From Bacteroidales bacterium (GTDB taxonomy: Bacteria; Bacteroidota; Bacteroidia; Bacteroidales; VadinHA17), in NCBI GenBank assembly GCA_029932855.1, contig JAOZPG010000025.1, forward strand, positions 1-34,231: DNA of 34,231 nucleotides, read 5' to 3'. The position numbers were made by a program, and so were the translations under genes. The notes beneath the pieces are model-generated. The model saw only the letters and a program-made list of their open reading frames with translations. It ran no database searches and was not told the origin of the DNA. This document shows, piece by piece, positions 1 through 33,342 of the stretch (position 1 is its first letter; every line of letters starts with the position of its first letter).

Positions 1-177
1 ACTGCAGCTGACAGGACACTGGCCCTGGATACTCTTACTACTATTTTAGTTGCAGGAATGGTATTGCTTGCTTATGTCTTTAACCGTTTCATCTATATGG
101 ATGTAGCTCTTATTTACGGGGTGCTTGGTTTTATAGGTGTGCTGGTTATTGCCAGATATCTGGAGGGCGCCTTATGA
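1..177 (+). CDS. mrpF: Mrp/Mnh antiporter subunit F, 3' part only
   Basis: This is the C-terminal 58 residues of a small membrane protein that enters from the left edge in frame 1 and stops at 175-177. The segment beginning at Asp4-Arg5 (DRTLALDTL) matches the conserved loop of MrpF/MnhF (MbhB in membrane-bound hydrogenase). Two hydrophobic segments follow, and the protein ends in the typical ARYLEG tail. MrpF is a small multi-span subunit of Mrp-type Na+/H+ antiporters and of the antiporter-like membrane arm of MBH/MBX complexes. Its stop codon overlaps the mrpG start (ATGA at 174-177), which implies translational coupling. Upstream mrpE and the operon promoter lie outside the window. The identification is firm; the role within an MBX/MBS-type complex is inferred from the downstream genes. 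Confidence 0.9.
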   Translation, partial: TAADRTLALDTLTTILVAGMVLLAYVFNRFIYMDVALIYGVLGFIGVLVIARYLEGAL

Positions 178-533
178 ACGAAATACTTGAGATTATCGGA
201 GCCTTGTTCGTATTACTCGGGGGATTTTTTCTCTTTCTCGGGGGATTGGGTATTTTTAGAATGCCGGATGCATTAACCAGACTGCAGGCAGGAACAAAAG
301 CTACTACTCTTGGAGGGATGAGCCTGATACTTGGTGTAGGCCTTATGGAAACTGCATGGCTTGTAAAGGCCCTGGTTATAATAGTATTTATTGCCTTCTC
401 CAATCCCATCAGTTCTCATGCACTGGCACGTGCAAATTATAAAAGAAAGAACTTCCCGTATTTTAAAGATAATAAAGGGGTGGATGCCTACAGGGAGGCA
501 TATTCAGATGAAAAGAAGGAGGAAAAATCATGA
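174..533 (+). CDS. mrpG: Mrp/Mnh antiporter subunit G (MbhC/MbxC-like)
   Basis: This 119-residue protein has three predicted membrane segments (about residues 4-26, 45-65 and 68-85) and the MrpG signature RMPDALTRLQAGTKATTLG at about residues 29-47. MrpG/PhaG is a small subunit of Mrp cation/proton antiporters; in MBH and MBX complexes its homologue (subunit C) helps form the sodium-translocation part of the membrane arm. The start ATG overlaps the mrpF stop, and its own stop overlaps the start of the next gene (ATGA at 530-533). The C-terminal tail (about residues 86-119) is charged and probably cytoplasmic. The family call is secure. Confidence 0.92.
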   Translation: MNEILEIIGALFVLLGGFFLFLGGLGIFRMPDALTRLQAGTKATTLGGMSLILGVGLMETAWLVKALVIIVFIAFSNPISSHALARANYKRKNFPYFKDNKGVDAYREAYSDEKKEEKS

Positions 534-826
534 TAATTTACCTGGTATTCTTATTTATATTACTAGCACTAATGGTTGGGGCTGCAATTTTTTCAATAAT
601 ACAAAAGGATCTTTTATATGCGGTTATTGGTACCGGTGTTATCAGCCTGATACTTTCTGTTTTGTTCTTTCTGCTCCAGGCACCTGACGTGGCACTTACA
701 GAAGCTGCAATTGGTGTTGCTCTTACAACCATTATTTTTATTATTACTATAAGGAATACTGTAAGATTTGAAGATGAGCACGACAGGAAGGAAGCAGGGG
801 AGAGTAAAAAATTTATAAATAATTAA
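530..826 (+). CDS. DUF4040 membrane protein (MbhD/MbxD-like, MrpA C-terminal-like)
   Basis: This 98-residue protein has three hydrophobic helices (about residues 2-18, 26-46 and 53-74). The core stretch around residues 45-65 (LQAPDVALTEAAIGVALTT) is the signature of DUF4040, the segment that is the C-terminal part of MrpA in Mrp antiporters and a stand-alone subunit D in MBH/MBX complexes. It has a conserved Asp and Glu (APDVALTEA) inside the membrane region, as expected for a subunit lining an ion path. Its start overlaps the mrpG stop by 4 bases. A stand-alone DUF4040 gene beside Mrp genes and a NuoBCDHI-like set is typical of MBH/MBX-type operons rather than of plain Mrp antiporters. Confidence 0.85.
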   Translation: MIIYLVFLFILLALMVGAAIFSIIQKDLLYAVIGTGVISLILSVLFFLLQAPDVALTEAAIGVALTTIIFIITIRNTVRFEDEHDRKEAGESKKFINN

Positions 827-838
827 TAATCAGACAAG

Positions 839-1534
839 GTGAAAAAAGTACTGGTTTTATTGCTCTTGGTCATTTTTGGGGTTTACCTGGCAGATGTGAT
901 GTTCAGCCTGGAATTTGGCAGGCAGGTATTTACTGACGGGGTAAGGGATTTTTATCTTGAAAAATCTCCCCTTGACCTGAAAGTGTCAAACACCATAACG
1001 GCTATAGTAGTTAATTTCAGGGGTTTTGATACCTTGGGTGAAGTAACTGTCCTGTTCCTGGCTACTACGGCAATGGGTGGCATACTTTATAAAAAGAGGC
1101 ATGCTGCAGGAACCCGCTCTGTGTTATTTTCTTCAAGTAAGATAGTAATGGCCGGTTCCAAGATTTTATTCCCTGCTATCATCCTTCTGGGAGTATATGT
1201 TTTTATTCATGGTCACCTTAGCCCGGGTGGAGGGTTTCAGGGAGGAACAATTATTGCTACCGGATTTTTACTGATGTTAATGGCATATTATGATTATTCA
1301 GTTAACCACAATGTATTAACTATTATTGAATCACTGGCAGGGATAACTTTTGCCGGAATAGGTTTGATGGGACTTGTAAAAGGGGGTTCCTTCCTTGAAA
1401 ACACTATGCCGGTGGGAGTAATGAATAATTTATTCAGCGGCGGACTTATCCCTCTGATATATATAGCTGTTGGTTTTAAGGTAGGGGCTGAGCTTACAGG
1501 TTTAATATATACTGCCCTGCACGAAAAAGATTAA
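839..1534 (+). CDS. Fused MbhE-like and MrpB/MbhF-like membrane subunit
   Basis: This 231-residue protein starts at GTG; no ATG fits the N-terminus. Residues 1 to about 90 look like MbhE (the last part of MrpA), with one helix at the N-terminus, an amphipathic loop, and a helix around FDTLGEVTVLFLATTAMGG (63-81). Residues about 105-231 are MrpB/MnhB (MbhF), with the family-defining loop HGHLSPGGGFQGGTIIATG (about 124-142) between helices. In Pyrococcus MBH these are separate genes E and F; here they form one polypeptide. The gene lies 12 bases after DUF4040 and 4 bases before mrpC. It belongs to the sodium/proton-translocating arm of the complex. The family assignment is solid and the exact domain boundary is approximate. 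Confidence 0.85.
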   Translation: MKKVLVLLLLVIFGVYLADVMFSLEFGRQVFTDGVRDFYLEKSPLDLKVSNTITAIVVNFRGFDTLGEVTVLFLATTAMGGILYKKRHAAGTRSVLFSSSKIVMAGSKILFPAIILLGVYVFIHGHLSPGGGFQGGTIIATGFLLMLMAYYDYSVNHNVLTIIESLAGITFAGIGLMGLVKGGSFLENTMPVGVMNNLFSGGLIPLIYIAVGFKVGAELTGLIYTALHEKD

Positions 1535-1538
1535 GAAT

Positions 1539-1952
1539 ATGGATCAGGTAAAATTTGATATAAGCTTAATTGAATATGGTTTTTTTATATCAGCCATATT
1601 AGTAATTATGATAGGCCTGTATGGAGCCATGGTAAAGAAATCGCTTATTAAGATAGTGATTGGGCTTTCCATCCTGGAGTCAGGAGTTAACCTTTTACTG
1701 ATAACTATTGCTTATGTACAGGGAGGAACCGCACCTATTTTCTCGCCCGGCCTGCTTAAGGATATGCCACTGACCGTAGAAAATATAAAGGCCCTGGGAG
1801 CCGGGATGGTTGACCCGGTTCCGCAGGCACTGGTGCTTACAGCTATTGTAATCGGTTTTGGTGTGACAGCCGTTGCGCTTGCCCTTGTAATAAGGTTATA
1901 CCGACATCATCATACACTTGTTATTGACGAAATAAAGAATTTAAAATGGTAG
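1539..1952 (+). CDS. mrpC: MrpC/NuoK-like antiporter subunit (MbhG/MbxG)
   Basis: This 137-residue protein has three predicted helices and is homologous to MrpC/MnhC and to NuoK of complex I. The second helix has the conserved membrane glutamate in GLSILESGVNLLLI, the residue that aligns with an essential NuoK Glu. An insert of about 30 residues (PIFSPGLLKDMPLTVEN) between helices 2 and 3 is usual in MrpC, followed by DPVPQALVLTAIVIGFG, a strongly conserved family block. The 3' end overlaps the next gene by 7 bases (1946-1952), so the two are probably translationally coupled. It would sit between the B-like subunit and the large antiporter subunits in the membrane arm. Confidence 0.92.
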   Translation: MDQVKFDISLIEYGFFISAILVIMIGLYGAMVKKSLIKIVIGLSILESGVNLLLITIAYVQGGTAPIFSPGLLKDMPLTVENIKALGAGMVDPVPQALVLTAIVIGFGVTAVALALVIRLYRHHHTLVIDEIKNLKW

Positions 1953-3439
1953 GAAGTCCTGTACTTTTTGTAGCTATTCCCCTGCTTACTGCTTTCCTTA
2001 TTCCCCTGTTTGCTTATATATGGAAAGAGCTGGTACGTATAATACCGGGGATTGTTATTCTATATTTATTAGTGTTGTCGGTCAGCCTGTACGGACAGGT
2101 TTTGCGGGAAGGCACTATTGTAGAACAAATAGCCGGCTGGGCTCCCCCATGGGGAATAAACCTGGTGTTTAGTCCGTTTACCGGTTTGCTTAGCACCCTT
2201 ATGTTGTTCATGGCATTTATTATCTGGATGTATAGCTACAGGTTTAAAAACATTGATTTCGAACCTTCCAAAAAATACTTTATCCTCTTGTTGATGCTTG
2301 TAACCGGTTCTATAGGTATTGTTCTTACCGGGGATATCTTTAACCAGTTCGTATTTATTGAGATAATGAGTATCTCGGGCTATGGTCTTACTGCTTTTTA
2401 TGTTGGCAGGGATAGTGCGGAAGCATCATTTAAGTACTTGATTATGGGTTCTATATCAAGCATGTTCCTGCTTCTTGCAATCATTCTTATCTATTCTCAG
2501 CTGGGAACACTTAACATGGCTGATATTGCCTCGAAAGCACATTTGATGAAGCCCGAATTTAAGATACTTGCATTAATATTTTTCATTCTGGGACTAGGGA
2601 TTGAGGCGGAGATATTTCCGCTCAACGGCTGGGCTCCTGATGTTTATTCGCAGGCTCCGGGGCCAATTGGGGCTGCTTTTTCAGGCATAGTAGTCAAAGC
2701 AGGTATTTATGCTCTTATAAGGGTGATATATACTCTATTTGATGTAGAGGGCAGTTTGCAATTTCTTGTTATCATTGGAATGATCACGCTCATTATTGCA
2801 GAGATGGCCGCAATAAGGCAGGATAAGATAAAGAGAATGCTTGCTTATTCCAGTATAGGACAGATGGGACTGGTTCTTGTTGCTTTTGGCATTGGTACCC
2901 ATGAAGGAGTTTTTGCCGCATTGTTCCTGATGGTGAGTCATGCACTTATAAAACCCCTTCTCTTTCTATCAGGATCTTACCTGGTGTTTAATTCGACCGA
3001 GAAAAGCATTAAAGAGCTTAATGGCCTCGGGAAATTTATGCCATTAACATCTTTCCTGTTTGCACTGGGAGCAATAGCCATTGTCGGCCTGCCTCCCCTG
3101 TCGGGGTTCTGGGCAAAGTGGTCTGTGCTTACAGCTGCTGCAAATTCAGGTATGCTGCTTGTAATAGGCCTCGTTCTTGCGATTAGCATTGTAGAAATTG
3201 TTTATTATTTCAGGGTGGTTAACCGTATATATTTCTTTAAGAAAGAAGAAAGTGTTGTTCCTAAAATACCTACTATCAATGCAAAATTTGCCATGGTTAT
3301 ACTTGCTGTTATAATAGTGGCCATAGGTTTTTATCCCGATCTTATTACTTCATATCTGCATGAAGCATCTGAGACTTTACTTGATAAAGGAAATTATATT
3401 CAAAATATTTTATCTGTCGCACAGCAGGTAACTCAATAA
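1946..3439 (+). CDS. Proton-antiporter subunit H (MrpD/MbhH/MbxH-like)
   Basis: This 497-residue polytopic membrane protein (about 14 helices) belongs to the NuoL/M/N-MrpA/D family (Proton_antipo_M domain). The conserved TM5 glutamate is E139 (FVFIEIMS), and the later lysines are present at K251 (GIVVKAG), in HALIKPLLF and in GFWAKW. The position normally held by the TM7 lysine (GF-x-x-KA in MrpD and NuoL relatives) is Glu220 (GLGIEAEIFPLNGWAPD). This may be a subfamily trait of MBH/MBX H subunits or a real change in the proton path. It overlaps mrpC by 7 bases and is followed 10 bases later by a second antiporter subunit, the H-H' pair expected for MBX/MBS rather than MBH. Confidence 0.9.
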   Translation: MVGSPVLFVAIPLLTAFLIPLFAYIWKELVRIIPGIVILYLLVLSVSLYGQVLREGTIVEQIAGWAPPWGINLVFSPFTGLLSTLMLFMAFIIWMYSYRFKNIDFEPSKKYFILLLMLVTGSIGIVLTGDIFNQFVFIEIMSISGYGLTAFYVGRDSAEASFKYLIMGSISSMFLLLAIILIYSQLGTLNMADIASKAHLMKPEFKILALIFFILGLGIEAEIFPLNGWAPDVYSQAPGPIGAAFSGIVVKAGIYALIRVIYTLFDVEGSLQFLVIIGMITLIIAEMAAIRQDKIKRMLAYSSIGQMGLVLVAFGIGTHEGVFAALFLMVSHALIKPLLFLSGSYLVFNSTEKSIKELNGLGKFMPLTSFLFALGAIAIVGLPPLSGFWAKWSVLTAAANSGMLLVIGLVLAISIVEIVYYFRVVNRIYFFKKEESVVPKIPTINAKFAMVILAVIIVAIGFYPDLITSYLHEASETLLDKGNYIQNILSVAQQVTQ

Positions 3440-3449
3440 GCCGATAATA

Positions 3450-5300
3450 ATGAATAGTATAGTAATAATATTTTTGATATTTCTTGCAGGGGCTGTCCTG
3501 ACTTACATCGGACAGAGATTATCGAACATTCTGGGGAGTTCCTTGTTCCTGCTTACGATTTTTGCGGCCACTGCACAGTTCTATTTAAGAGTTAATACAG
3601 GCGATATATTTTCCTTTTCTCTGAATGGTTTAGAAATGGAATGGGGAATTACTCCTATTAGCTGGCTGTTTAGTCTGATAGTTCTGGGCCTTGGAAGCAT
3701 GGCTGCGGTGTATAGCATTTCAGCAATGAAAGCTAAAGAAAGGCTTGGCTATTTCTATTTTAATTTTATCATGGGCATTTTTTCCATGATGGGCATACTT
3801 CTTAGCCGCGATTTGGTCTCATTCTTTATTTTTTGGGAAATAATGACCTGGTCTTCTTATATGATAGTTATCTATGAAGGCAGATCTGTTCAGAAGGTAG
3901 GGATTAAATATTTTTTATTCAGTGCTATTGGTGCCTATGCTATGTTAATGGCTATTGTTATAATATACAGCCAGGTACACAGTGTATTAATCGAAGACCT
4001 GGTATATTCTTTCTCTTCATTTACACTTGCTTACAAAATATGGTTGCCCATTCTTCTTCTTACCGGATTTGGGGTTAAGGCCGGTATGATGCCATTGCAT
4101 GTATGGGCTCCCGGAGCTTACAGTCACAGTCCCATGGCCTACAGCTCGCTCTTTTCAGGAGCCCTTTCAAAGATGGGTGTTTACGGAATGGTGCTGGTTT
4201 TTTCAATGCTTATAACACAAATACCTGAACATTTGCTGATTCGGGAAGTTATAGCCTGGTTGGGTGCCTTAACTGCAGCCATTGGCACCCTCTGGGCAAT
4301 TGCCCAGGACGATGCAAAGAAACTACTCGCTTATTCTTCTGTTGCTCAGCTTGGTTATATAATAACGGGGGTAGCAGTTGGGACAGAGCTGGCAATGCTT
4401 GCTGCTATTTTTCTTGCTGTGCTTCATGCATTGTTTAAGGGTACTCTTTTTATGGTTGTTGGTGCCATTGAGAAGCAAACAGGGACAACTAATTTAACAG
4501 AAGTAACGGGCCTGATAAGAAAGATGCCCTGGACTTTTATTGCGGCACTGATGTCTATTATAGCCCTGGCTGGAATACCTCCCCTGGGTGGTTTTGTTGG
4601 GAAGTGGATGCTTTATGAAGCCCTGATAGCAAGTGATCATTATATCCTGGTTGTATTGATATTTTTTGCCAGTACTGCCGGCTTCCTTTATTGTTATAAA
4701 TTCCTGTTTGGTTTTTTCCTTGGCCAGGAAGAGAAAGAATGGGCTCATGTAAAAGAAGCACCTGCCACCATGGTGGTGCCAATGCTCATTTTTTCAGTTC
4801 TGCTTTTTGTGCTGGGTACATTCCCGGGCCTTCTTTTAAAACCAATAGATATTGGAATGCAGGAACTTGGGTATGCAGCCAGCGAGGGACATTATTGGAC
4901 CATGTCGGTTCTTTTTAATGAATATGGAAATGCAATAATGCTTCAGCCCATTTTGTATGCTATCATTGCAATATTTCTTTTCTTCCTTGTTTTCCTTACA
5001 GCCAAAGCTTTTAAAGGCACACGTTATGTAAGCACCAAGGATATAAGTAGCTCGGGAGAGGTACCCGGGGAATTTGAGAACCTGTCTTTTAAGGAAAACT
5101 TTTTTCAGCCTTTTCTACGTGCGGTGGAACCTGTTATGAAAAGACAGATAGACTGGTATTATACGCTTGTGGGAAATGGAATGGAAGCACTGTTTAATTT
5201 TGTAAGAAGGGTTTATACCGGCAATGGACAGACCTATGCCATTTATGCCATTGTTTTCCTTGTCATATTATTATTGTTAAAATCCAATTTATTCGGGTAA
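3450..5300 (+). CDS. Second proton-antiporter subunit H' (NuoL/MrpA-N-like)
   Basis: This 616-residue polytopic protein of the NuoL/MrpA/HyfB family has the conserved TM5 Glu (SFFIFWEIMTW), the TM7 Lys (TGFGVKAGMMPLHVWAPGA), a lysine in GALSKMGVYG, and HALFKGTLF and GGFVGKWM in the later helices. Residues about 515-616 form an extension with an amphipathic stretch and a final membrane helix, comparable with the lateral-helix tail of NuoL-type subunits. With the preceding H gene it gives the complex two large pump modules. In P. furiosus MBS two such subunits distinguish the sulfur reductase from the single-pump hydrogenase. It lies 14 bases before the NuoH-like gene. The family call is secure. 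Confidence 0.9.
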   Translation: MNSIVIIFLIFLAGAVLTYIGQRLSNILGSSLFLLTIFAATAQFYLRVNTGDIFSFSLNGLEMEWGITPISWLFSLIVLGLGSMAAVYSISAMKAKERLGYFYFNFIMGIFSMMGILLSRDLVSFFIFWEIMTWSSYMIVIYEGRSVQKVGIKYFLFSAIGAYAMLMAIVIIYSQVHSVLIEDLVYSFSSFTLAYKIWLPILLLTGFGVKAGMMPLHVWAPGAYSHSPMAYSSLFSGALSKMGVYGMVLVFSMLITQIPEHLLIREVIAWLGALTAAIGTLWAIAQDDAKKLLAYSSVAQLGYIITGVAVGTELAMLAAIFLAVLHALFKGTLFMVVGAIEKQTGTTNLTEVTGLIRKMPWTFIAALMSIIALAGIPPLGGFVGKWMLYEALIASDHYILVVLIFFASTAGFLYCYKFLFGFFLGQEEKEWAHVKEAPATMVVPMLIFSVLLFVLGTFPGLLLKPIDIGMQELGYAASEGHYWTMSVLFNEYGNAIMLQPILYAIIAIFLFFLVFLTAKAFKGTRYVSTKDISSSGEVPGEFENLSFKENFFQPFLRAVEPVMKRQIDWYYTLVGNGMEALFNFVRRVYTGNGQTYAIYAIVFLVILLLLKSNLFG

Positions 5301-5314
5301 TAAAATAAATTTAA

Positions 5315-6226
5315 ATGGAGTCTTTGTTATATAGTATTTTAGGAGTCCTTGTCTCACTTATCCTGGCATTTACAGTGGGGATGACCTATATGGGTCTCAG
5401 CAGGAAAATTACGGCCAGGATTCAGAACAGGATAGGCCCTCCCTTCTACCAGAACTTCATTGATGCCATGAAGCTTTATTCAAAGAGCACGGGGATACAT
5501 CATGGTGTTATGCATCATTTGGGTCCTGCATTTATTATGGTTACATCGGTAATGTCATTAATGATAATTCCTATCCTTAATGACAGTGCTTTCTTTACAA
5601 ACATGAATTTTCACGGTGACCTGATCTTTCTTTTATACATAATGACATTCGGTCCCCTTGGAATGGCACTGGGTGCCGGTCAGACAGGTAATCCTAATTC
5701 AGCTATAGGCGTAACACGTGGCCTGAGCCAGATGGTTGGTTTTGAGATACCATGGGTGATGGCCATTATTGCCTTAATGATAAGATACGATACCAGCTCC
5801 ATAGTGGACATTATGAACATACAGGCTGATGCAGGCAGATGGATAATGTTTTCTTCACCCTTTACTTTTATAGCTGCCCTGCTTGCAATGCTTGGGATGT
5901 TCAGGTATTCTCCTTTCGATATTGTAGGAGCTCCCACAGAACTGGCCTCTGGACCCATGTCCGAGAATGGAGGTAAATACTTGTTTACCATGATGTCGTC
6001 AAGTTCTATTTTTGCCTTTGCCAAGCTTACCTTATATGTTAACCTTTTTATGGGAGGGGCAGATAACCTGCTTGTACTGATAATTAAAACATTTGCTCTC
6101 TATATGGTTCCTTTATTGTATGGAACAGTAAGTCCGCGATACAGGACCGAGCAGGCGGTAAGATATTTCTGGGGATGGCCAAGCTTTTTCGGATTGCTGG
6201 CAATTTTATATGCTGTTTTCTTTTAA
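5315..6226 (+). CDS. NuoH-like membrane anchor subunit (MbhM/MbxM)
   Basis: This 303-residue protein has about eight helices and is homologous to complex I NuoH and group 4 hydrogenase subunit M. The first cytoplasmic loop has the family signature TARIQNRIGPP (about residues 34-44). The quinone-chamber-type acidic loop is also recognisable: GFEIPWVM (about 142-149) and SPFDIVGAPTELASGP (about 207-222). This subunit connects the peripheral redox arm to the antiporter modules and transmits conformational change. It is followed 12 bases later by the NuoB-like gene, giving the M-J-K-L-N order of MBX/MBS operons. Confidence 0.92.
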   Translation: MESLLYSILGVLVSLILAFTVGMTYMGLSRKITARIQNRIGPPFYQNFIDAMKLYSKSTGIHHGVMHHLGPAFIMVTSVMSLMIIPILNDSAFFTNMNFHGDLIFLLYIMTFGPLGMALGAGQTGNPNSAIGVTRGLSQMVGFEIPWVMAIIALMIRYDTSSIVDIMNIQADAGRWIMFSSPFTFIAALLAMLGMFRYSPFDIVGAPTELASGPMSENGGKYLFTMMSSSSIFAFAKLTLYVNLFMGGADNLLVLIIKTFALYMVPLLYGTVSPRYRTEQAVRYFWGWPSFFGLLAILYAVFF

Positions 6227-6238
6227 TAAGCTTTCAAA

Positions 6239-6784
6239 ATGATTAATGATAAGAATTCACAAAAGATAGTTGACCATATTCATAATTTTGCAAGGAAGCA
6301 TTCTCTTTGGGTATTGGCTTATGGTACGGGTTGCGGGGCAATAGAAATCCCTCCTACCATGACATCGAGGTATGATGCCGAGCGGCTTGGTGTAAGAGGA
6401 GCCGCTACACCGCGTCAGGCCGACCTGTTGTTGATTACGGGTTACCTTACTACAAAGACACTGAAAAGAGTAATTCGTGTTTATGAACAGATGCAGGATC
6501 CTAAATATGTTATAGGATTTGGTTCATGTACCATAAATGGTGGTATGTACTACGATTCATATAATACTATAAATGCTCTTGATCGTTACTTACCGGTTGA
6601 TGTTTATATAAACGGGTGTATGCCAAGACCTGAAGCTGTTATTGCAGGATTTACAAAGCTACAGGAACTTATTACTGCAGGGAAAGCTGATGGTGCAGCA
6701 AAGTATAAAGAAAAGCTCGAATGGTATAGAAAGAACCAGAAGAATGTTATACCCAACTGGACTATGCCGGAATATAACTGGTAA
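6239..6784 (+). CDS. NuoB/MbhJ-like small subunit with only three cysteines (MbxJ/MbsJ)
   Basis: This 181-residue soluble subunit of the NuoB/hydrogenase small-subunit family would carry the proximal (N2-type) [4Fe-4S] cluster. The conserved blocks are GTGCGAIEI (C32), GFGSCTINGGMY (C97) and INGCMPRPEA (C127). These are the only cysteines in the protein. NuoB has a tandem CC and MBH has CxxC in the first block, so one of the four usual ligands is missing; position 33 is Gly. A three-Cys, site-differentiated cluster has been described for Pyrococcus MbsJ, where the open iron is proposed to reduce sulfane sulfur. The same arrangement here supports an MBS-type rather than hydrogenase or quinone chemistry. 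The assignment to the family is firm; the reaction is inferred. Confidence 0.93.
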   Translation: MINDKNSQKIVDHIHNFARKHSLWVLAYGTGCGAIEIPPTMTSRYDAERLGVRGAATPRQADLLLITGYLTTKTLKRVIRVYEQMQDPKYVIGFGSCTINGGMYYDSYNTINALDRYLPVDVYINGCMPRPEAVIAGFTKLQELITAGKADGAAKYKEKLEWYRKNQKNVIPNWTMPEYNW

Positions 6785-6853
6785 ATAAAGGATTACCCGG
6801 AAGGATTGAAATTAAGAAGACATGAATAAATATAAAGTGGAACTTGTAAAAAA

Positions 6854-7432
6854 ATGATACAAGGAATGAAAGAAAACAAAGTTAAGCTGGCTAAATACCT
6901 GAAAGAACATTTTCCTGCAATAATAGAAAAAGATTATAATTATAACAGGATTGATTTCAGTATTAATAGAGAGCTGGTGCCTTCTGTTCTGCGTTTACTG
7001 AAAGAGGAGTCAGGATATATTCACCTGTCTCATATAAGCTGTGTCGACTGGTTAGAGGAAGAAGAGTTCGAACTGGTTTTTATTATCTGGTCGCCAGTGG
7101 ATAAAATAAAAATCCTTATACATACCCGTATTGATCGTAATAACCCTGTTATGGATAATATTGATAAAATATGGAGGCAGGCAAATACTTATGAGAGGGA
7201 AATAAAAGAGATGTATGGTATAGAATTTACGGGGCTTGAAGCTGCTGATGAATTCCTACTGGAGGATTGGAATGGTATGCCACCTATGCGCAGGGATTTT
7301 GATACAGCTGCCTATGCAAGTAATAAATATTATAATCGTCCCGGGAGGGAAGATGCAATGGACGTGCGTGAGGAGATTGCCCGGCATTCAGGGGAAGAGA
7401 TTCCTGATTTTGCAAAAAAATATTCCAGATAA
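6854..7432 (+). CDS. NuoC-like subunit (MbhK/MbxK)
   Basis: This 192-residue soluble protein is homologous to the 30-kDa NuoC subunit of complex I. The signature YEREIKEMYGIEFTG (about residues 116-130) is followed by DWNGMPPMRRDFD (about 141-153), the usual end of the NuoC domain. The N-terminal region contains the expected alpha/beta fold with HLSHISCVDW around residue 60. It lies 69 bases after the NuoB-like gene, the largest gap in this operon. Its stop is immediately followed by the ATG of the NuoD-like gene with no spacing. It is a structural subunit of the peripheral arm and carries no cofactor. Confidence 0.9.
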   Translation: MIQGMKENKVKLAKYLKEHFPAIIEKDYNYNRIDFSINRELVPSVLRLLKEESGYIHLSHISCVDWLEEEEFELVFIIWSPVDKIKILIHTRIDRNNPVMDNIDKIWRQANTYEREIKEMYGIEFTGLEAADEFLLEDWNGMPPMRRDFDTAAYASNKYYNRPGREDAMDVREEIARHSGEEIPDFAKKYSR

Positions 7433-8536
7433 ATGAGAGAAAAAGCTACAACCTTATATATAGGGCCCCAGCATCCGGGGATAACCGGGAATATGATGAT
7501 CCGCCTTAAGGTGGAAGGAGATACTATTGTTAAGGCTATTACTGAAGTAGGATACTTGCACAGGTCCTTCGAGAAGCTGGCCGAAAGGAGAAACTGGCTG
7601 CAGGCATTTACGCTTATGTGCCGTTTTTGTGTTCCTGAACCGGACCCGGTTGAAGAAACATATTCACGTGCTGTTGAACTGCTTGAAGGAAGGTCGGTTC
7701 CCGACAGGGCAAAATTCCTGCGGGTTCTTGTACTTGAACTGGCCCGTATCTCTTCACAGTTACTGTGGTATGGCGGACAGGGTGCTTCTTTGGGCCTTTA
7801 TACAATTGGCCAGTGGAGTGTGGGAGACAGGAATTATATCCTTGACCTGTTTGAGGAACTTACCGGAGCAAGGGTTTACCATATGTATATCTGGCCCGGA
7901 GGAGTTCGCAGGGATATGCCGGAAGGATTTGAAAAGAGGGTCTTGAAGACAATGGATTACCTTGAAGGCAGGCTGGATGAGTATGAAGCACTGATGTTTG
8001 ATAATGCGATATTTAAAAAGAGAACACAGGGTATAGCAATAATTGATAAAGAGAAGGCTATAGAATGGGGTGTTGTGGGTCCGCCTCTGAGAGGCTGCGG
8101 CATTAAAAGTGATATACGTATTGATGATCCTTATGAAGTGTATGAGCATCTTGATTTTGAGATTCCTGTTTATGAAGGAGGAGATATATGGGCAAGAGCA
8201 TTGGTTAGAAGAGATGAGATAAGGCAGTCAATAAGAATTGTGAGGCAGGTTATAAAAGAAATGCCGGGTGGTTCTTATTATAACAAGGTGCCTAATCCTC
8301 AAAAGTGGACTATTCAGAAAGGAGATGCTTATGCCCGTACTGAGGCTGTACGTGGAGAGATTGGCTTTTATGTTGTTAGTGATGGCAGTAATCATCCCAG
8401 GCGTGCCCACATGAGGGGTGCTGCCTATGTTCATGGTATTACACTGCTGGAAGATATTCTTAAAGGAGCCAATGTTGCGGATGTTTCATCTATTATGAAT
8501 AGCCTGGGGACATGTCCCCCTGAAATTGAACGTTAA
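7433..8536 (+). CDS. NuoD/[NiFe]-hydrogenase large-subunit-like protein lacking a full NiFe site (MbxL/MbsL)
   Basis: This 367-residue protein is homologous to NuoD and to the large subunit of group 4 [NiFe] hydrogenases. N-terminal blocks GPQHPG (11-16) and GYLHRSFEKLAERR (40-53) are conserved. The N-terminal cysteine pair is present as C63-x-x-C66 (LMCRFCVPEPD). At the C-terminus the hydrogenase motif DPCxxCxxR is replaced by GTCPPEIER: C361 remains but the last ligand is E364, the residue found at that place in complex I (GEVDR ending). Three of four Ni-Fe ligands are therefore present, and no C-terminal maturation extension follows Arg367. No hydrogenase maturation genes are nearby. A working [NiFe] site is unlikely; sulfane or disulfide reduction as in MBS is the best inference. 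Confidence 0.9.
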   Translation: MREKATTLYIGPQHPGITGNMMIRLKVEGDTIVKAITEVGYLHRSFEKLAERRNWLQAFTLMCRFCVPEPDPVEETYSRAVELLEGRSVPDRAKFLRVLVLELARISSQLLWYGGQGASLGLYTIGQWSVGDRNYILDLFEELTGARVYHMYIWPGGVRRDMPEGFEKRVLKTMDYLEGRLDEYEALMFDNAIFKKRTQGIAIIDKEKAIEWGVVGPPLRGCGIKSDIRIDDPYEVYEHLDFEIPVYEGGDIWARALVRRDEIRQSIRIVRQVIKEMPGGSYYNKVPNPQKWTIQKGDAYARTEAVRGEIGFYVVSDGSNHPRRAHMRGAAYVHGITLLEDILKGANVADVSSIMNSLGTCPPEIER

Positions 8537-8548
8537 AGATTGTAGATT

Positions 8549-10342
8549 ATGAGTTTTTTCGATTTAAAAGGAACGCTTAGCCCTTTCTCTGCCTTGAAGC
8601 AGTTTGGCAGGAAGCCGCATACTATTCAATACCCGAAAGAGGATAAGGAGGCAGCTGACCGTTACAGAGGCTTTCATTATAATGAGATGGAGGATTGCAT
8701 TGGATGTGGGAACTGTTCTACAATATGTCAGAATGCAGCCATTGATATGGTTAAGGTGGAAGGACAGGAAGCATCTAAAGGAGATTCGGGACTCAGGCCC
8801 AGGGTGGATAACGGAAGGTGTTGCTGGTGCGGATTATGTGTGGATGTTTGTCCCACAGGAAGCCTGAGCCTTACCAAAGATTACCTTTATGTTAGTGATG
8901 ATGCAGATTCTTTTTTATTTACTCCCGGTCTTGATAATCCCGGGGGAAAAGATAATGTTTCTTTCTTCAGTACCAAAGAATCGAGCCTCAACGACTTTGC
9001 CAGGATACCAATGCCTGAACTGGAGGGAAAAGAAAGAATAAAATCATTTGCTGAGGTAGTGCTTGGATATAATGAAGCTGAAGCAAGGGCTGAGGCAAGC
9101 AGGTGTATCAGTTGCGGATTGTGTAGCGAGGTGTGTCCCGAGCACATGCATATTCCTGAGTATATTAATGCAATTGCCGGCGGTAATGACCAGGATGCCT
9201 TGAGGATAATCTATGATAATAACCCCTTACCTGAGATGTGTGGCAAGGTTTGTACACGCAGGTGTGAGGATGTTTGTGCCATTCAGACACGTGGCGAAGC
9301 TATTGCAATTCGCTGGCTGAAGAGGTATGCAACGGAGACTGCTGATAATGCAGAACTGATAAGGGAAATAGTAAATCCTGAGATCAAAGAGGCTAATGGC
9401 TATAAGGTTGGAATAGTAGGGGCCGGTCCATCGGGACTAACAGCTGCATATTATCTTGCACTGAGGGGATTTGATGTAAGTATATATGAATCAAACAAAC
9501 AGGCCGGGGGTATGACCATGTATGGTATTCCAAAATACCGTTTCCCCGAGGATAGCCTGCAAAAGCAGATTGATTATATAACTTCTATTGGAGTAAAAAT
9601 TCATTTCAATACCAGTGTAGGTAAAGATATAAGCTTCGAAGAGGTCTATAAGCAGAACGATGCAGTTTTTATGGGTGTTGGATTCCTTAAGCCATGGACA
9701 CTTGGCATTGAGGGAGAAGAGCTGAAAGGTTCTGAGCAGGCGGTGACTTTTCTGCATGCAGCAAACAGCGGATTGCAGGTAGATGTTGGTGATAAAGTGG
9801 CAGTGATAGGTGGCGGTAATGTTGCCATTGACGCTGCACGTGTTTCTGCCAGGATGAATGCTGAAGTGACTATACTGTATCGTCGCAGGGTTGAAGATAT
9901 GCCTGCCGACTGGGAAGAGATTGAGGGAGCCGAAGATGAAGGAATAAACATTGTGCCCCAGGCTATTCCAATTAAGTTTCATAGTGATGAAACAGGCAGG
10001 ATCAAGTCGGTTGAATACCTTAAGGCAAAAATGGTTCCTGATGAGGGAGGAGGAAGGCCAAAGCCTGTGCCTATTGAGGGCAGCAACACTATTGTAGAGG
10101 TTACAGCGGTACTGGGAGCTATTGGACAGCAGGGTGATTACAGCTTCCTGAAGGGAGAGTTTGAGGAAAAGATTAAAACTGAAAGAGGCAGGTTTGTTGT
10201 GAATGAATTTCAGCAAACTTCTGATCCAAAAGTATTTGCAGGGGGCGATGCTGTAAACCGCACGGCAGATGCTATATCAGCAATAGCAGATGGTTATCGT
10301 GCAGTGAAAGGTATAGAAGAGATGTTAATGAAGAAAGCTTAA
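8549..10342 (+). CDS. Fusion of a NuoI-like ferredoxin (MbxN) and a GltD/NfnB-like NAD(P)H oxidoreductase
   Basis: This 597-residue protein combines two modules. Residues 1 to about 110 are a two-cluster ferredoxin, with C50-C53-C56-C60 and C91-C94-C97-C101 in CxxCxxCxxxC spacing and an extra C92. Residues about 165-597 resemble the GltD/NfnB/SudA family. They have a CxxCxxCxxxCP motif (C186, C189, C192, C196), a C231-x3-C235-x3-C239-x3-C243 set, an FAD-binding GAGPSG (291-296), an NAD(P)-binding GGGNVA (421-426) followed by YRRR (444-447), and a GGDAVNRT end block (565-572). The basic YRRR favours NADPH, but this is inference. In archaeal MBX/MBS operons the last gene encodes only the ferredoxin part (N). 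The fusion would let the complex exchange electrons directly with NAD(P)H. It is the last gene of the operon. Confidence 0.92.
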   Translation: MSFFDLKGTLSPFSALKQFGRKPHTIQYPKEDKEAADRYRGFHYNEMEDCIGCGNCSTICQNAAIDMVKVEGQEASKGDSGLRPRVDNGRCCWCGLCVDVCPTGSLSLTKDYLYVSDDADSFLFTPGLDNPGGKDNVSFFSTKESSLNDFARIPMPELEGKERIKSFAEVVLGYNEAEARAEASRCISCGLCSEVCPEHMHIPEYINAIAGGNDQDALRIIYDNNPLPEMCGKVCTRRCEDVCAIQTRGEAIAIRWLKRYATETADNAELIREIVNPEIKEANGYKVGIVGAGPSGLTAAYYLALRGFDVSIYESNKQAGGMTMYGIPKYRFPEDSLQKQIDYITSIGVKIHFNTSVGKDISFEEVYKQNDAVFMGVGFLKPWTLGIEGEELKGSEQAVTFLHAANSGLQVDVGDKVAVIGGGNVAIDAARVSARMNAEVTILYRRRVEDMPADWEEIEGAEDEGINIVPQAIPIKFHSDETGRIKSVEYLKAKMVPDEGGGRPKPVPIEGSNTIVEVTAVLGAIGQQGDYSFLKGEFEEKIKTERGRFVVNEFQQTSDPKVFAGGDAVNRTADAISAIADGYRAVKGIEEMLMKKA

Positions 10343-12028: not shown

Positions 12029-13348
12029 TTATTTCCGCCTTATTATTTTCCCGGTGTAATTAAATCCGGAGCCTGAGATCTTTAATAAATATATTCCATC
12101 TGGCAGATTTTGCAGTTTTATGACAAAGCTGCTGTTATAAGTTGAATATGAATATAATTTAATTCCTGCCAGACTGTATATATCGATATTTACTTTAGTA
12201 CTTTTTTCAGCTAGTATGATAGTTAATGCATCCCGGAAAGGATTTGGGAAGACCTGTATGCTTTTTCCCGGATCAGGATGGCCGGCTGACAGTTCGGCTG
12301 AGTAATAATATTCAAGTCGATCGTAATAATGCCAGGAATTATCTTTCCAGTTATGACTTTCTTCAGAGACGAGGTCTTCATATAGATCATACTCATATAT
12401 GTATCGGGTATTAACATTCCAGATGCTGTTATCCCAGATAAAATATTGAATAAGGGTGTTTTGCAGCTGTTCATTATAACTGTATTCATATTTTACCACA
12501 TTATTCCATTGGAGACCGTCCCATGACTGGTATTTTTTCTCAATAGGATTATCAAAGTCTGAATAGCTATAAGTTATAAGGCTTGACGGAACCCAATCTG
12601 TGGTATTGTTGTCCCATTTGCTCTGAATTTCACTGCTAAGCAGATCGGCATTATAATCATAGCTGCTGTGATTCTGGTTATTCCAGGAGTGCTGGCTCGT
12701 ATCCCACTTCATCCTGGTCATAGCGCTTTTTTTGTTATCAGCATACTCATACAGGAACTGGTAATCATTAATGAACCCGGAGCTGTCTGAAAGCCAGTAT
12801 TGTCTTTTATAATTTATTAAATTATTATTCCCGTCAAAGAGATATGAATACATTGAAAGACTATCCCAGCCCGATGTTATTACATTCCATGAAAACACAA
12901 GATAATGATCAAGCAGGGATGATGCATTATAATAATATTCCCTCCTGGAAGATAATTCCCAATTAGCGGATATTGCAGACCATTTACTGCTTACGATATT
13001 GCTTAACCGGTTATTATCTTCATAAACACGTTCTTCCTTGCTGTAAGCAGCCCAGATAGAAAGCCCGGAATCCCATAAACTGGTATTTATGGTGGTAAGC
13101 TTCCCCTGCTCATTATAATCATAGCTTATGTTCTGATAATTTTCCCAGCTTGTTTGATCCGGGGAATAAAGGAGATAATATACCGAATCCAGCAACCTTG
13201 AAGATGATTTTACAGGCTGTTGAAATGAGTATGGATAGTATATTGAGTCTGGCAAGCTTTCCATTGCCAGGTCGGGAGAATAAATATCTTCCTGTGAAAA
13301 AGAGACAAAGCTTATTAAACTGAACAATAATAATGTAGAAAACCTCAT
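12029..13348 (-). CDS. T9SS-secreted protein built of ~30-residue Trp/Tyr repeats
   Basis: The start at 13348 gives 439 residues and a clean signal peptide (MRFSTLLLFSLISFVSFSQ). Residues about 60-350 consist of about ten tandem repeats with the pattern W-D-x5-W-x7-Y-x-Y. The leading tryptophans fall at 92, 123, 154, 185, 215, 245, 276, 305 and 334, a period of 29-31 residues, with a partial unit at W68. The C-terminal 75 residues form a type A type IX sorting domain (VFPNPF near 366-371, LPDGIYLLKISG, ending KIIRRK). The protein is therefore exported and probably attached to or released from the cell surface. The repeats resemble YD-type or sugar-binding aromatic repeats, but I do not recognise the family. 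It stands alone on its strand. Confidence 0.85.
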   Translation of the reverse strand: MRFSTLLLFSLISFVSFSQEDIYSPDLAMESLPDSIYYPYSFQQPVKSSSRLLDSVYYLLYSPDQTSWENYQNISYDYNEQGKLTTINTSLWDSGLSIWAAYSKEERVYEDNNRLSNIVSSKWSAISANWELSSRREYYYNASSLLDHYLVFSWNVITSGWDSLSMYSYLFDGNNNLINYKRQYWLSDSSGFINDYQFLYEYADNKKSAMTRMKWDTSQHSWNNQNHSSYDYNADLLSSEIQSKWDNNTTDWVPSSLITYSYSDFDNPIEKKYQSWDGLQWNNVVKYEYSYNEQLQNTLIQYFIWDNSIWNVNTRYIYEYDLYEDLVSEESHNWKDNSWHYYDRLEYYYSAELSAGHPDPGKSIQVFPNPFRDALTIILAEKSTKVNIDIYSLAGIKLYSYSTYNSSFVIKLQNLPDGIYLLKISGSGFNYTGKIIRRK

Positions 13349-13497
13349 TTTTGTATTTAACAGATTTAAATGTCTTAAAATCTTAAAGTAATAGAAATAT
13401 AATAACACAAAGCAGTATAAATGCAAATTCCCGGATTATTATATTTACAGCTATCTAATAATTAATAGTATTATAAAATAATATACGTAAAGATAAT

Positions 13498-30930: not shown

Positions 30931-31350
30931 ATGAAAATTATAATACTTTGTACAGGAAACAGTTGTCGTTCACAGATGGCAGAAGCTTTTCTGAAGTTAT
31001 ATGACAAAAATTTAGAGGTGAATAGTGCCGGTACCGAACCCTCTGAAAAAGTACATCCAAAAGCAATTAAGGTAATGGCAGAGGCTGGGATTGATATTAG
31101 TGGCAATTCCACTAAACCGGCAGATGAATTCGTTTCCCGCTCATTTGATTATGTAATTACAGTTTGTGATAATGCAAGGGAGCATTGCCCGGTATTTACA
31201 GGTGAGGTTAAACATAGTTTACATATCCGCTTTGATGATCCTGCAGAAGCCACAGGTACAGAAGAGGAAATTTATGCTGAGTACAGAAGAATAAGAGATG
31301 AGATAAGGGAAAGTTTTTATGCTCTTTATCATGAGATAATTAAGAAATAG
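30931..31350 (+). CDS. arsC: Thioredoxin-coupled arsenate reductase ArsC (LMW phosphatase fold)
   Basis: This 139-residue protein of the low-molecular-weight phosphatase fold has the P-loop CTGNSCRSQMAE (C7, C12, R13). The relay cysteines C79 and C86 lie in ITVCDNAREHCPVF and have the same seven-residue spacing as Cys82/Cys89 of plasmid pI258 ArsC. All four residues needed for the thioredoxin-coupled disulfide cascade are therefore present. It reduces arsenate to arsenite in the cytoplasm. It lies on the + strand near the arsR-thioredoxin-permease set on the opposite strand. The nearest thioredoxin-like protein (33447-33686) is a possible electron donor. Confidence 0.92.
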   Translation: MKIIILCTGNSCRSQMAEAFLKLYDKNLEVNSAGTEPSEKVHPKAIKVMAEAGIDISGNSTKPADEFVSRSFDYVITVCDNAREHCPVFTGEVKHSLHIRFDDPAEATGTEEEIYAEYRRIRDEIRESFYALYHEIIKK

Positions 31351-31478
31351 GATATGATTATTAGTGATAATGTATCCGCCCCTGGCCAGGTTAAAGTATG
31401 GGGAACTGAAGAATATTTTATTAATTAGTTTTATGCTCTCAGAAGCATTTAGCCAGAGTGGCAAACAAGATAGTTGTA

Positions 31479-31856
31479 ATGATTAAGACAATTTTATTAA
31501 TTGGAACGGGAGGGTTTGTGGGAAGTGTGGCAAGGTATTTTGTTTCAAAATTAAACCTGTATATCGATTTTTTTTCTATTCCCGTGGGGACTTTGATAGT
31601 TAATATTCTGGGTAGTTTTTTAATAGGATTCTTAGTAGGAATTTCTGAGAAAAGTCCCATTCTTGATGCCGACATGAGATTATTTCTGATGGTTGGATTA
31701 TGTGGCGGATTTACAACATTTTCAACATTTACCAGTGAGAACCTGTCCCTGATGCATCACGGTCAGATTTTAGCAGTTTTCTTATATGCCGGACTGAGTA
31801 TTTTCTTAGGATTTATAGCAGTATTCCTGGGTTTCAGTACATCAAATCTATTATAG
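31479..31856 (+). CDS. crcB: Fluoride ion channel CrcB/FluC
   Basis: Starting at the ATG at 31479 (a GTG 21 bases upstream is less likely), this 125-residue protein has four helices and the Fluc motifs GTLIVNILGSFLIGF (about residues 38-52) and GLCGGFTTFSTFTSEN (about 73-88). The latter contains the Phe-box and the Thr/Ser of the central sodium site. The channel is a dual-topology dimer that exports fluoride. It lies 1 base before a DUF190 gene, a common pairing, and 128 bases after arsC. I looked for the crcB (fluoride) riboswitch in the 128-base leader and did not see its conserved core. Confidence 0.92.
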   Translation: MIKTILLIGTGGFVGSVARYFVSKLNLYIDFFSIPVGTLIVNILGSFLIGFLVGISEKSPILDADMRLFLMVGLCGGFTTFSTFTSENLSLMHHGQILAVFLYAGLSIFLGFIAVFLGFSTSNLL

Positions 31857-31857
31857 T

Positions 31858-32208
31858 ATGGAAACAAAAGACAATTGTGTATTAAAGATATATGCCAGTA
31901 CCACTGACAGGATAGGATCGAAATTACTTTACGAGTATATTGTTAAGCTTGCTAAGGAGAATGGAATTTCAGGAGTAACGGTTTATCGGGGTATTATGGG
32001 CTATGGCCAGAGCAGTAAACATATAAACTCTTCAAAGTTTTGGGAACTGACAGAAAAGCTTCCCGTTATGATAGAAATGATAGATAAGAAAGACATTCTG
32101 GAGAATTTTTACGATCAGATTGAGCCCGAATTATTAAAAATGTCTAAAGGTTGCCTTGTATCAATTGAGGCAATACAAATTAAGTTGCTGAAGTCGGGAG
32201 AAAAGTAA
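31858..32208 (+). CDS. DUF190 (PII-like) protein paired with CrcB
   Basis: This 116-residue cytoplasmic protein of the DUF190/COG1993 family has a ferredoxin-like, PII-resembling fold. Family landmarks are KIYASTTDRIGSKLLYEYIV (about residues 10-29), GVTVYRGIMGYGQSS (about 39-53) and LPVMIEMID (about 68-76). It starts one base after the crcB stop. DUF190 genes are frequently found beside crcB, so a regulatory role with fluoride or ion homeostasis is likely, but the ligand is not known to me. It is the last gene of the + strand group and is followed by a hairpin with a T-run. Confidence 0.88.
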   Translation: METKDNCVLKIYASTTDRIGSKLLYEYIVKLAKENGISGVTVYRGIMGYGQSSKHINSSKFWELTEKLPVMIEMIDKKDILENFYDQIEPELLKMSKGCLVSIEAIQIKLLKSGEK

Positions 32209-32221
32209 AAAGGTTTTCCTT

Positions 32222-32260
32222 ATAATGAAAGACTTTCGTACTCTTGCTTCATTATTTTTT
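32222..32260 (+). terminator. Terminator after the arsC-crcB-DUF190 group
   Basis: ATAATGAA (32222-32229) pairs with TTCATTAT (32248-32255), with an 18-base loop and a run of T directly after (32256-32260). It lies 13 bases beyond the DUF190 stop in the gap between convergent genes. The long loop lowers confidence. Confidence 0.5.
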
Positions 32261-32313
32261 ACAACATGATAAGTCATGATGGAGGAATATGTTTTGTTTT
32301 CCGAATTGCTAAT

Positions 32314-33342
32314 TTAAGTAAATACTATATAGTTAAATATTAAACCAACTATAGCAATTCCTGTTGCAACTACAAGCACAAATATCCCTATCAGTTGCCA
32401 TTTCAAGACTTTCTTAAGAATAATGATCTCGGGCAGCGACAGTGCAATAACAGACATCATAAATGCAAGTGCTGTTCCAAGGCTTACTCCTTTTTCGATA
32501 AGGACGCTTACAATAGGGATTATCCCTGCTGCATTTGAATATAAAGGGATACCTGTAAGAATGGCAAGGGGGACTGAATACCAGTTTTGGCTGCCAAGTG
32601 CTCCAGCAAGATATTCATCAGGCACAAAACCATGTGCTCCTGCTCCAACAGCGATCCCAAGAAGAATATAAATCCAGATCTTCCCGACAATCTCTTTCAC
32701 TACCACTCCACCTGCCGAAATTCTTTGATTAATAGTCATGGATTCCTCTTTTTCAAGGCCTTGTTTTGCCTGAGTTTTAAAGACCCAGTCAGCCACATAT
32801 TTATTTAGATTAAGCTTTTCAAGAATAAATCCTGCCAGTATAGCAATCGTTAATCCGGTTATAACATAAATCACTGCAACTTTCCATCCAAATAATCCAA
32901 TGAGCAGTACCACTGCAACTTCATTGATCATTGGAGCGGCAATAAGAAATGAGAAGGTGACGCCCAGTGGGATTCCTGCCTCTACAAAGCCTAAGAACAG
33001 GGGAATGGCCGAGCAAGAACAAAAGGGTGTTACAATTCCCAGTAAGGAAGCCATAACATTCCCTGTGAAAAGCGACTTTCCCTCAAGTGCTTTGCGTGTT
33101 TTCTCAGGCGAAAAATATGTTCTGATTATCCCTACAATAAAAATGATTAAGGTCAGCAGCAATAGTACTTTTGGCACTTCATAACAAAAGAAACGAATCG
33201 ATTTTGTTAAATGTGTTTCATCTGTCATCTTAAACAACTTAAAAACAATAAAGTCTGAAATTTCCTGCAGATTAGTATAGATGATAATCCAGATGGGGAT
33301 CAGGAGAATCACAGCTACTATTTTATTTTTTATGCTATTCAT
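32314..33342 (-). CDS. ArsP-like permease (DUF318/YraQ family)
   Basis: This 342-residue protein has about eight to ten helices and belongs to the DUF318/ArsP/YraQ permease family. The signature TPFCSCSAIPLFLGF (C108 and C110) lies at the start of a conserved membrane segment, followed by SFLIAAPMINEVA (about 131-143), and a second half-repeat has GIPLYSNAAGIIP. Members export trivalent organoarsenicals (ArsP) or other metal species. The cytoplasmic loop around residues 185-205 is charged. It is downstream of arsR and the small thioredoxin on the same strand (gap 104 bases), so arsenic or a related metalloid is the likely substrate. Confidence 0.85.
   Translation of the reverse strand: MNSIKNKIVAVILLIPIWIIIYTNLQEISDFIVFKLFKMTDETHLTKSIRFFCYEVPKVLLLLTLIIFIVGIIRTYFSPEKTRKALEGKSLFTGNVMASLLGIVTPFCSCSAIPLFLGFVEAGIPLGVTFSFLIAAPMINEVAVVLLIGLFGWKVAVIYVITGLTIAILAGFILEKLNLNKYVADWVFKTQAKQGLEKEESMTINQRISAGGVVVKEIVGKIWIYILLGIAVGAGAHGFVPDEYLAGALGSQNWYSVPLAILTGIPLYSNAAGIIPIVSVLIEKGVSLGTALAFMMSVIALSLPEIIILKKVLKWQLIGIFVLVVATGIAIVGLIFNYIVFT

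Follow-up and report, generated by a model that had tools for sequence, protein, structure and literature searches.

The 34,231-base contig JAOZPG010000025.1 (C41), called the window in the following, is part of a 2.6 Mb genome of a Bacteroidales bacterium (GCA_029932855.1) and carries at positions 1–10342 an operon of the MBX/MBS type, the type of the sulfane reductase MBS of Pyrococcus furiosus. The genes are all in frame and on one strand, and their products score over the cut-offs of their Pfam families. In the product of the last gene the subunit N is fused to a GltD/NfnB-like flavoprotein, and it is with this fusion and its consequences that the analysis is mainly concerned. The operon starts at base 1 of the contig, so that the expected first gene (MnhE/MbsA) is off the contig; in 46 of 82 sequences an MnhE gene adjoins the operon, upstream in most of those shown. 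The genes are the following.

1..177, + strand: MnhF/MbsB-type antiporter subunit, its 5' end lost at the contig edge (open frame from base 1 to a stop at 177; the query matches the F gene beside MnhG in relatives)
174..533, + strand: MnhG/MbsC (PF03334, 85.6 bits)
530..826, + strand: MbhD/MbsD (PF13244, 72.2 bits)
839..1534, + strand: MbsE, which is MbhE fused to MnhB (PF20501 and PF04039)
1539..1952, + strand: MbsG, MnhC/NuoK-like (PF00420, 92.5 bits)
1946..3439, + strand: MbsH, antiporter-like pump subunit (PF00361, 218.9 bits; top NCBIfam model NF006241, 466 bits)
3450..5300, + strand: MbsH', antiporter-like pump subunit (PF00361; top PDB chain 6u8y_X of MBS, 311 bits)
5315..6226, + strand: MbsM, NuoH-like membrane anchor (PF00146, 178.7 bits)
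6239..6784, + strand: MbsJ, NuoB-like, with C32, C97 and C127 for the proximal cluster (6u8y_J, 229 bits)
6854..7432, + strand: MbsK, NuoC-like (PF00329, 91.9 bits)
7433..8536, + strand: MbsL, NuoD-like, with C66 and C361 kept and T18 and V67 at the positions of quinone residues (6u8y_L, 361.5 bits; tree)
8549..10342, + strand: N fused to a GltD/NfnB-like FAD/NADP(H) module, 597 amino acids (NF010590, 645.5 bits; NfnL 5jca, 307.6 bits)

Identity of the core subunits

Compared with all chains of the PDB, the window's L scores highest with MbsL of P. furiosus, followed by complex I (242 bits) and the membrane-bound hydrogenase MBH (145 bits). The same order is found for J, with NDH (complex I) at 142 bits and MBH at 115 bits, and for H' the next match after MBS is MBH (6cfw_H, 181 bits). 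Passages of PMC7684303 give as marks of MBS a proximal cluster held by three cysteines, the absence of the Cys-Cys pair of complex I and the absence of the quinone residues. The J ligands C28, C93 and C123 of MBS are C32, C97 and C127 in the window, and the dispensable C25 is a glycine. C85 and C385 of MbsL are retained as C66 and C361, the other two NiFe cysteines are absent, and in place of H38 and Y87 of Nqo4 stand T18 and V67.

The related loci analyzed here are the best 80 of at least 562 confirmed relatives (at least 576 pattern hits), found by scanning named genomes with an L alignment, and form a sample biased toward the window's own type. Of 75 J proteins from these loci, 74 have Gly directly after C28 and one has a gap there. 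The position of Y87 is Val in all 80 L proteins and that of H38 is Thr in 52, Glu in 26, Ser in one and Pro in one, equivalents of H38 and Y87 thus being absent throughout. In one locus (L110) the J gene is spread over two reading frames, either through a sequencing error or because the gene is broken.

A tree was calculated from 89 L proteins, namely those of 78 loci (L061 and L095 were omitted as too short), the window, a second operon of the same genome (C33, see below), P. furiosus MbsL, five complex I and three hydrogenase proteins; like the other trees it was made by a quick method and came with long-branch warnings. It unites 81 rows, P. furiosus MbsL among them, in one MBX clade with support 100, separate from the complex I and hydrogenase rows. 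This placement, together with the retention of only two of the four cysteine ligands, rules out that the window's L is that of a NiFe hydrogenase or of complex I. For the whole complex, a complex I identity was rejected on the lack of the NuoEFG module, the NuoB Cys-Cys pair and the NuoD quinone residues, a Group 4 NiFe hydrogenase (MBH) on the lack of the four L cysteines and the position of L outside the hydrogenase rows, and an archaeal-type ferredoxin-dependent MBS, which has a stand-alone N subunit, on the finding that N and GltD share one frame. The initial annotation of this DNA, made from its letters alone, had proposed an MBX/MBS-type complex with a non-hydrogenase active site; both proposals are borne out by the J, L and H' scores, the Pfam set, the NiFe cysteines and the L tree, in which L falls neither among hydrogenases nor within complex I.

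A search of plasmids gave 97 records, all below 60% identity; 20 matches listed were 35–36% identical, and those of them with a gene name are nuoD of complex I.

The fused N-GltD protein

P. furiosus MBS (6u8y) has the same subunit set, the three-Cys proximal cluster, the cavity without quinone residues and an L of the same clade, whereas its MbsN stands alone and is fed by ferredoxin. MBX of Thermotoga maritima is a bacterial 13-subunit MBS homologue whose mbxA transcript increases 4.36-fold on S0, and the relevant parts of PMC9431562 propose ferredoxin as its donor, unlike the donor predicted here.

In the window, residues 7–596 of the 597 of N-GltD align to positions 9–609 of the 611 of NCBIfam model NF010590 (PRK13984), which has the same full-length domain layout and is called "putative oxidoreductase", a name without function. 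The NuoI/MbsN-like N part (residues 1–140) contains two 4Fe-4S motifs (residues 50–101) and scores 84.5 bits with MbsN (6u8y_N). For the GltD part (residues 146–595) the nearest solved fold is that of NfnL/NfnB (5jca), with Z 48.8 and a root-mean-square deviation of 1.8 Å over 447 aligned residues in a comparison that covers mainly residues 142–597. An AlphaFold2 model of the whole chain (predicted local distance difference test score 90.2, predicted template modelling score 0.85) suggests that the two parts are held in a fixed arrangement. That the fusion arose by chance or from a frameshift was rejected in view of its single frame and of the same fusion in 55 of the 80 relatives. With this, the last subunit is indeed a ferredoxin-GltD fusion and an NAD(P)H module distinct from NuoEFG, as had been claimed at the outset, and the separate N and GltD genes that might have been met in relatives are one gene in those 55 loci.

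The Fe-S region of the GltD part has eight cysteines (residues 186–243), which are invariant in 39 fusions (the window, C33, G009 and 36 loci; the first version of this alignment held three Spirochaete rows without N domain, and later analyses used full rows). Lys258 is also invariant in the 39 fusions, and in a larger set it is present in 54 of 55 rows, the remaining one having a gap. Counted along the match of residues 191–592 to 103–496 of StnC, it corresponds to K170. According to passages of PMC10482914, in StnC of the Stn transhydrogenase (8oh5) a Lys takes the place of the cluster Glu of NfnB and the GltD domain is no longer bifurcating; there too a GltD module leads into an Fe-S wire, which differs from that of the window in being joined to a NuoG domain and the soluble bifurcating StnAB and not to a membrane pump.

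The GltD domain is nearest to NfnL in sequence and fold, and the FAD of NfnL is bifurcating, from which one might suppose that electrons from NADPH are split between ferredoxin and polysulfide. We consider this very improbable, the cluster-ligand Glu of NfnL being Lys here as in the non-bifurcating StnC, and the operon being without an NfnA-like partner gene; on the same two points an identity as bifurcating Nfn was rejected.

Residues 444–446 of N-GltD form the motif YRR, which in parts of PMC7596348 marks the NADP(H) type of DsrL-2 and NfnB. Because the motif is present, by the rule drawn from DsrL and NfnB in that source, the window's GltD module is predicted to take NADP(H) rather than NAD(H). 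This prediction has good support from the motif and the fold, and it narrows the NAD(P)H input of the initial annotation.

Distribution, coenzyme classes and a second complex

Among the 80 loci the fusion is complete in 51 and truncated at a contig end in four (55 fused); in 14 N is a separate gene with a stop of its own, two have an N broken by a contig end and nine no N, the contig ending within 560 bases past L in eight of these (L097 has 3.2 kb past L). N stands alone in seven loci of Campylobacterota, four of Chromatiaceae, two of DHVE2 archaea and one of a Spirochaete, and on the tree of 72 scored rows three changes between fused and lone N are required. In three of the loci with N alone (L076, L079, L081) an MnhE-like gene lies directly downstream of N.

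Going by the titles of the records, mostly metagenome-assembled genomes (MAGs), carriers of the fusion are spread over about a dozen phyla and range from Bacteroidota to tubeworm symbionts, which rules out a restriction to Bacteroidota. Within the Bacteroidota at large, a J profile scored 372–390 bits in two of 395 evenly drawn genomes (next best 170 bits), and a search with the full-length fusion, three candidates being scored per genome, found the same two. In the host's family nine of 35 other genomes gave 340–374 bits, and two further ones, which carry a third type, about 232 bits; two genomes of the same genus (76% and 89% complete) among the 35 gave no match. Two of 24 order-mates scored 322–338 bits. 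MBX-GltD is therefore rare in Bacteroidota overall and patchy in the host's family. The contig of L050, filed as Sulfurovum sp., has a Bacteroidota-type MBX and is a neighbour of L052 in the tree, possibly by a binning error.

The surmise that the fusion or its Bacteroidota host might be new did not hold, the fusion being found in so many phyla, and also elsewhere in the host's family, and being already covered by NF010590. A NuoI-GltD fusion of MBX was not found described in the literature, subscription papers lying largely outside the search. MBX-GltD is thus no isolated case but a known machine in a form that has been little studied, the same design being present in many bacteria.

The 55 fused proteins contain YRR in 31 cases and lack it in 22, two being cut. 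At the H38 position of the L cavity there is Thr in all 31 YRR loci, and in the 22 non-YRR loci Glu (20), Ser (1) or Pro (1). On the tree of the 39 fusions the YRR motif changes once, and once also when the GltD part is used without the motif columns. The association of YRR with Thr is without exception in this sample, but it goes back to very few evolutionary events. Eighteen of the 22 non-YRR loci are from Pseudomonadota or animal symbionts, three from Spirochaetes and one from a Desulfurellales MAG; many of these carriers we take, by their names, to be sulfur oxidizers. Following the precedent of DsrL, the non-YRR class is read as the one that probably uses NAD(H).

The presence of the family in Thiodiazotropha, Sedimenticola, Thiomargarita, Parasulfuritortus and tubeworm symbionts, which to judge from the names presumably live by sulfur oxidation, raises the question whether the window complex could work in reverse, an ion gradient driving electrons from sulfide or polysulfide to NADP+ so that the machine would supply reductant. 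The same machine class is named for the Riftia symbiont as "putative Mrp-Mbx", with function and direction listed as unknown and network neighbours shared with the reductive tricarboxylic acid cycle (passages of PMC11636981, which do not speak of a GltD module). The readable fusions of the sulfur-oxidizer groups, those of the tubeworm-symbiont loci L096 and L100 included, are however of the non-YRR class, unlike the window's (N is unreadable in four Thiomargarita loci), and the Psr-like reductase, two NiFe hydrogenases and Rnf of the host (see below) resemble the equipment of a sulfur reducer. For the window, the reverse direction appears unlikely.

A second MBX operon of the same genome lies outside the window on contig C33 (locus L036, C33:262000–281999; minus strand, 4720–15778 of L036). 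Its H and H' are fused into one protein of 1041 amino acids, and its GltD domain is without YRR. A gene for a CBS-domain protein is found 7 bp downstream of this operon. BLAST searches with the C33 proteins against the 80 loci gave the best match for L, K, J, M, H-H', EB, MnhG and the N domain in a core clade of Aminicenantes, Fermentibacteria, Cloacimonadota, Calditrichota and Acidobacteriota, in which every readable fusion has YRR; MnhC and MnhE are near ties between clades. The GltD domain finds its best match in a non-YRR locus (548 bits, 60%), the best core-clade row reaching 386 bits. In approximately unbiased tests, whose groups were named after the trees had been seen and whose p values are therefore too favourable, a tree that forces C33 L into the non-YRR clade is worse by 99 log units (p 2.5e-38) and one that forces GltD into the core clade by 192 log units (p 2.6e-93); when the motif columns were left out, an earlier test of GltD against all YRR rows yielded p 0.046, and the N domain, with C33 as the sole row of its type, gave p 0.086 for a non-YRR placement. 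Two order-mates (G453, G446) carry the C33 type, and with their rows added GltD with the core costs 230 (p 3.3e-69) and N with the non-YRR clade 27 (p 0.028). A family-mate (G404) has the same core as C33, its contig ending before N. The similarity profile of the C33 fusion is core-like to about residue 125, ambiguous from 126 to 300 and non-YRR-like from about residue 276. The C33 operon has Thr in L and no YRR, and no other fusion in the window or the 80 loci departs from the pairing of the two. C33 is thus, as judged by these comparisons, a mosaic with core and N domain from the YRR side and a GltD module from the non-YRR, probably NAD(H)-dependent, clade. That one genome has two complexes, one of them with an exchanged coenzyme module, is new and the most informative fact of this analysis.

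Upstream of the C33 operon are genes for a cytochrome b/multihaem protein and a Rieske protein, followed 4.6 kb from the operon by sulfur genes (L153, C33:281500–301400, 875–7121) encoding PsrABC-like proteins (PsrA-, PsrB- and NrfD-like), two Sulf_transp proteins and two rhodaneses. The PsrA-like molybdoprotein scores 658 bits with 2vpw of T. thermophilus and 171 bits with the next. The genome also encodes two NiFe hydrogenases (types judged by eye), one beside a NuoE/F-like gene, and RnfC; a search of the 96% complete genome with PF00346 gave no NuoD of complex I besides the two MBX L proteins. The lack of a complex I NuoD, and the Rieske/cytochrome b pair beside C33, which suggests the use of quinones, would suit an NADPH:menaquinone oxidoreductase as a substitute for complex I. 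Since H38 and Y87 are absent in all 80 L proteins, J lacks a Cys-Cys pair and the tree is separate from complex I, we hold this to be quite improbable.

The neighbours of the window operon on its downstream side, a cupin and a class II aldolase gene, are both on the minus strand and have no evident link to it; a scan of the DNA past the operon showed two promoter-like sites and no terminator-like one. Elsewhere in the window there are a protein with a Por_Secre_tail sorting domain (12029–13426), consistent with a Bacteroidota host, and side by side a low-molecular-weight phosphatase-family protein, CrcB and an ArsP-type permease (30931–33342). As to related loci, genes lying ahead of the operon in L071, L072, L077, L080 and L083 group together, and the one in L080 was typed as Rex, a redox-sensing repressor, which hints at control by NADH. 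In 15 loci (among them L058, L093, L096, L104, L106 and L111) the gene after the fusion clusters with a rubrerythrin typed in L111 (PF02915), at a distance of at most 180 bp in the 14 loci shown. Another group of genes, positioned before MnhE in 10 loci (nine of Bacteroidota and L068 of Rectinema), includes one for a dihydroorotate-dehydrogenase-like protein typed in L040 (PRK07565).

Function and significance

We consider it rather probable that the window complex is an ion-pumping NADPH:sulfane-sulfur (polysulfide) reductase of the MBX/MBS type with an NADP(H) module of its own. The architecture is that described above. Sulfane sulfur as acceptor is supported by the identity of the active site and modestly by the context, to which belong the sulfur genes near the C33 operon, a PsrA-like fragment in L055 and the response of T. 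maritima mbxA to S0; ion pumping and its direction are inferred by analogy with MBS. NADPH, as direct donor instead of ferredoxin, would bind to the GltD domain and reduce its FAD, as the fold and the YRR motif suggest. From FAD the electrons would go singly, first via the Fe-S sites of GltD, one of them presumably ligated by Lys258, then via the two [4Fe-4S] clusters in the N domain, and so reach the proximal cluster that three Cys would hold in J, a path predicted from conserved cluster motifs. At the top of the J/L/M cavity this cluster would reduce sulfane sulfur (polysulfide) as in archaeal MBS, and its oxidation would shift loops of M, L and H' such that Na+ (or H+) is exported via H, H' and the Mrp subunits. 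Such a machine would be reversible; the non-YRR relatives in sulfur oxidizers may run backwards, an ion gradient driving electrons from sulfide to NAD+.

A reversible ferredoxin:NAD(P) oxidoreductase had been named initially beside the ion-pumping reductase. It has in its favour that the N domain is a homologue of MbsN, which takes electrons from ferredoxin, and that for P. furiosus Mbx a ferredoxin:NADP+ oxidoreductase coupled to ion transport was proposed earlier (cited in a passage of PMC6349859). In MBS and complex I, the J/L/M cavity with its loops mediates the coupling (parts of PMC7684303). Since ferredoxin and NADP+ would meet at the N/GltD end of the wire, far from that cavity, which would be left without a substrate, such an enzyme is less likely as a pump; the cavity features of J and L are conserved. 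Of the two initial options we thus favour the ion-pumping NADPH:polysulfide reductase and regard the other as improbable.

Several points weigh against the reductase. The drop in potential from NADPH to polysulfide is smaller than that from ferredoxin and leaves little energy for pumping, and a quinone-like or another disulfide substrate may also be compatible with the sequence. Queries with the sulfur genes near C33 matched only one of 464 flanking open reading frames in the 82 sequences, a PsrA-like fragment in L055 that begins about 260 bp past the fusion and is ended by the contig end, and the sulfur genes of the host adjoin the C33 operon, not that of the window. N-GltD stays at 645.5 bits below the cut-off of 946 bits of NF010590 although the match is full length. 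The long-branch warning extends to P. furiosus MbsL, whose exact place within the clade is unsure. L107 and L108 have Ala and Tyr at the positions of C85 and C385 and thus neither of the retained L cysteines; in MBS mutants these were not required, according to passages of PMC7684303. In parts of PMC4053972 sulfur reduction is disputed for another NiFe-less, Hyf-like relative on the ground that its carriers occur in non-sulfidic places. Biochemical work on any MBX-GltD complex was not found in the literature.

Extending the favoured NADPH:polysulfide reductase to the family, we tentatively suggest, at somewhat less than even chances, that MBX-GltD is a widespread ion-coupled NAD(P)H:sulfane-sulfur oxidoreductase with two coenzyme classes. 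The YRR/Thr types would reduce polysulfide with NADPH in anaerobes, the non-YRR types, mostly with Glu, would run backwards in sulfur-oxidizing autotrophs and symbionts and form NADH from sulfide by means of an ion gradient, and the coenzyme would be switched by exchange of the GltD module within the fused gene, as in C33.

In accounts of the evolution of respiration MBS is placed between the hydrogenases and complex I, and it has been characterized as ferredoxin-driven. A branch of MBS wired to NAD(P)H would be a route by which complex-I-like pumps gained pyridine-nucleotide input independently of NuoEFG. The split into coenzyme classes bears on how sulfur-oxidizing symbionts could form NADH from sulfide, and a genome with one complex per coenzyme type and one natural module swap offers a ready-made experiment on the matching of coenzyme and active site.

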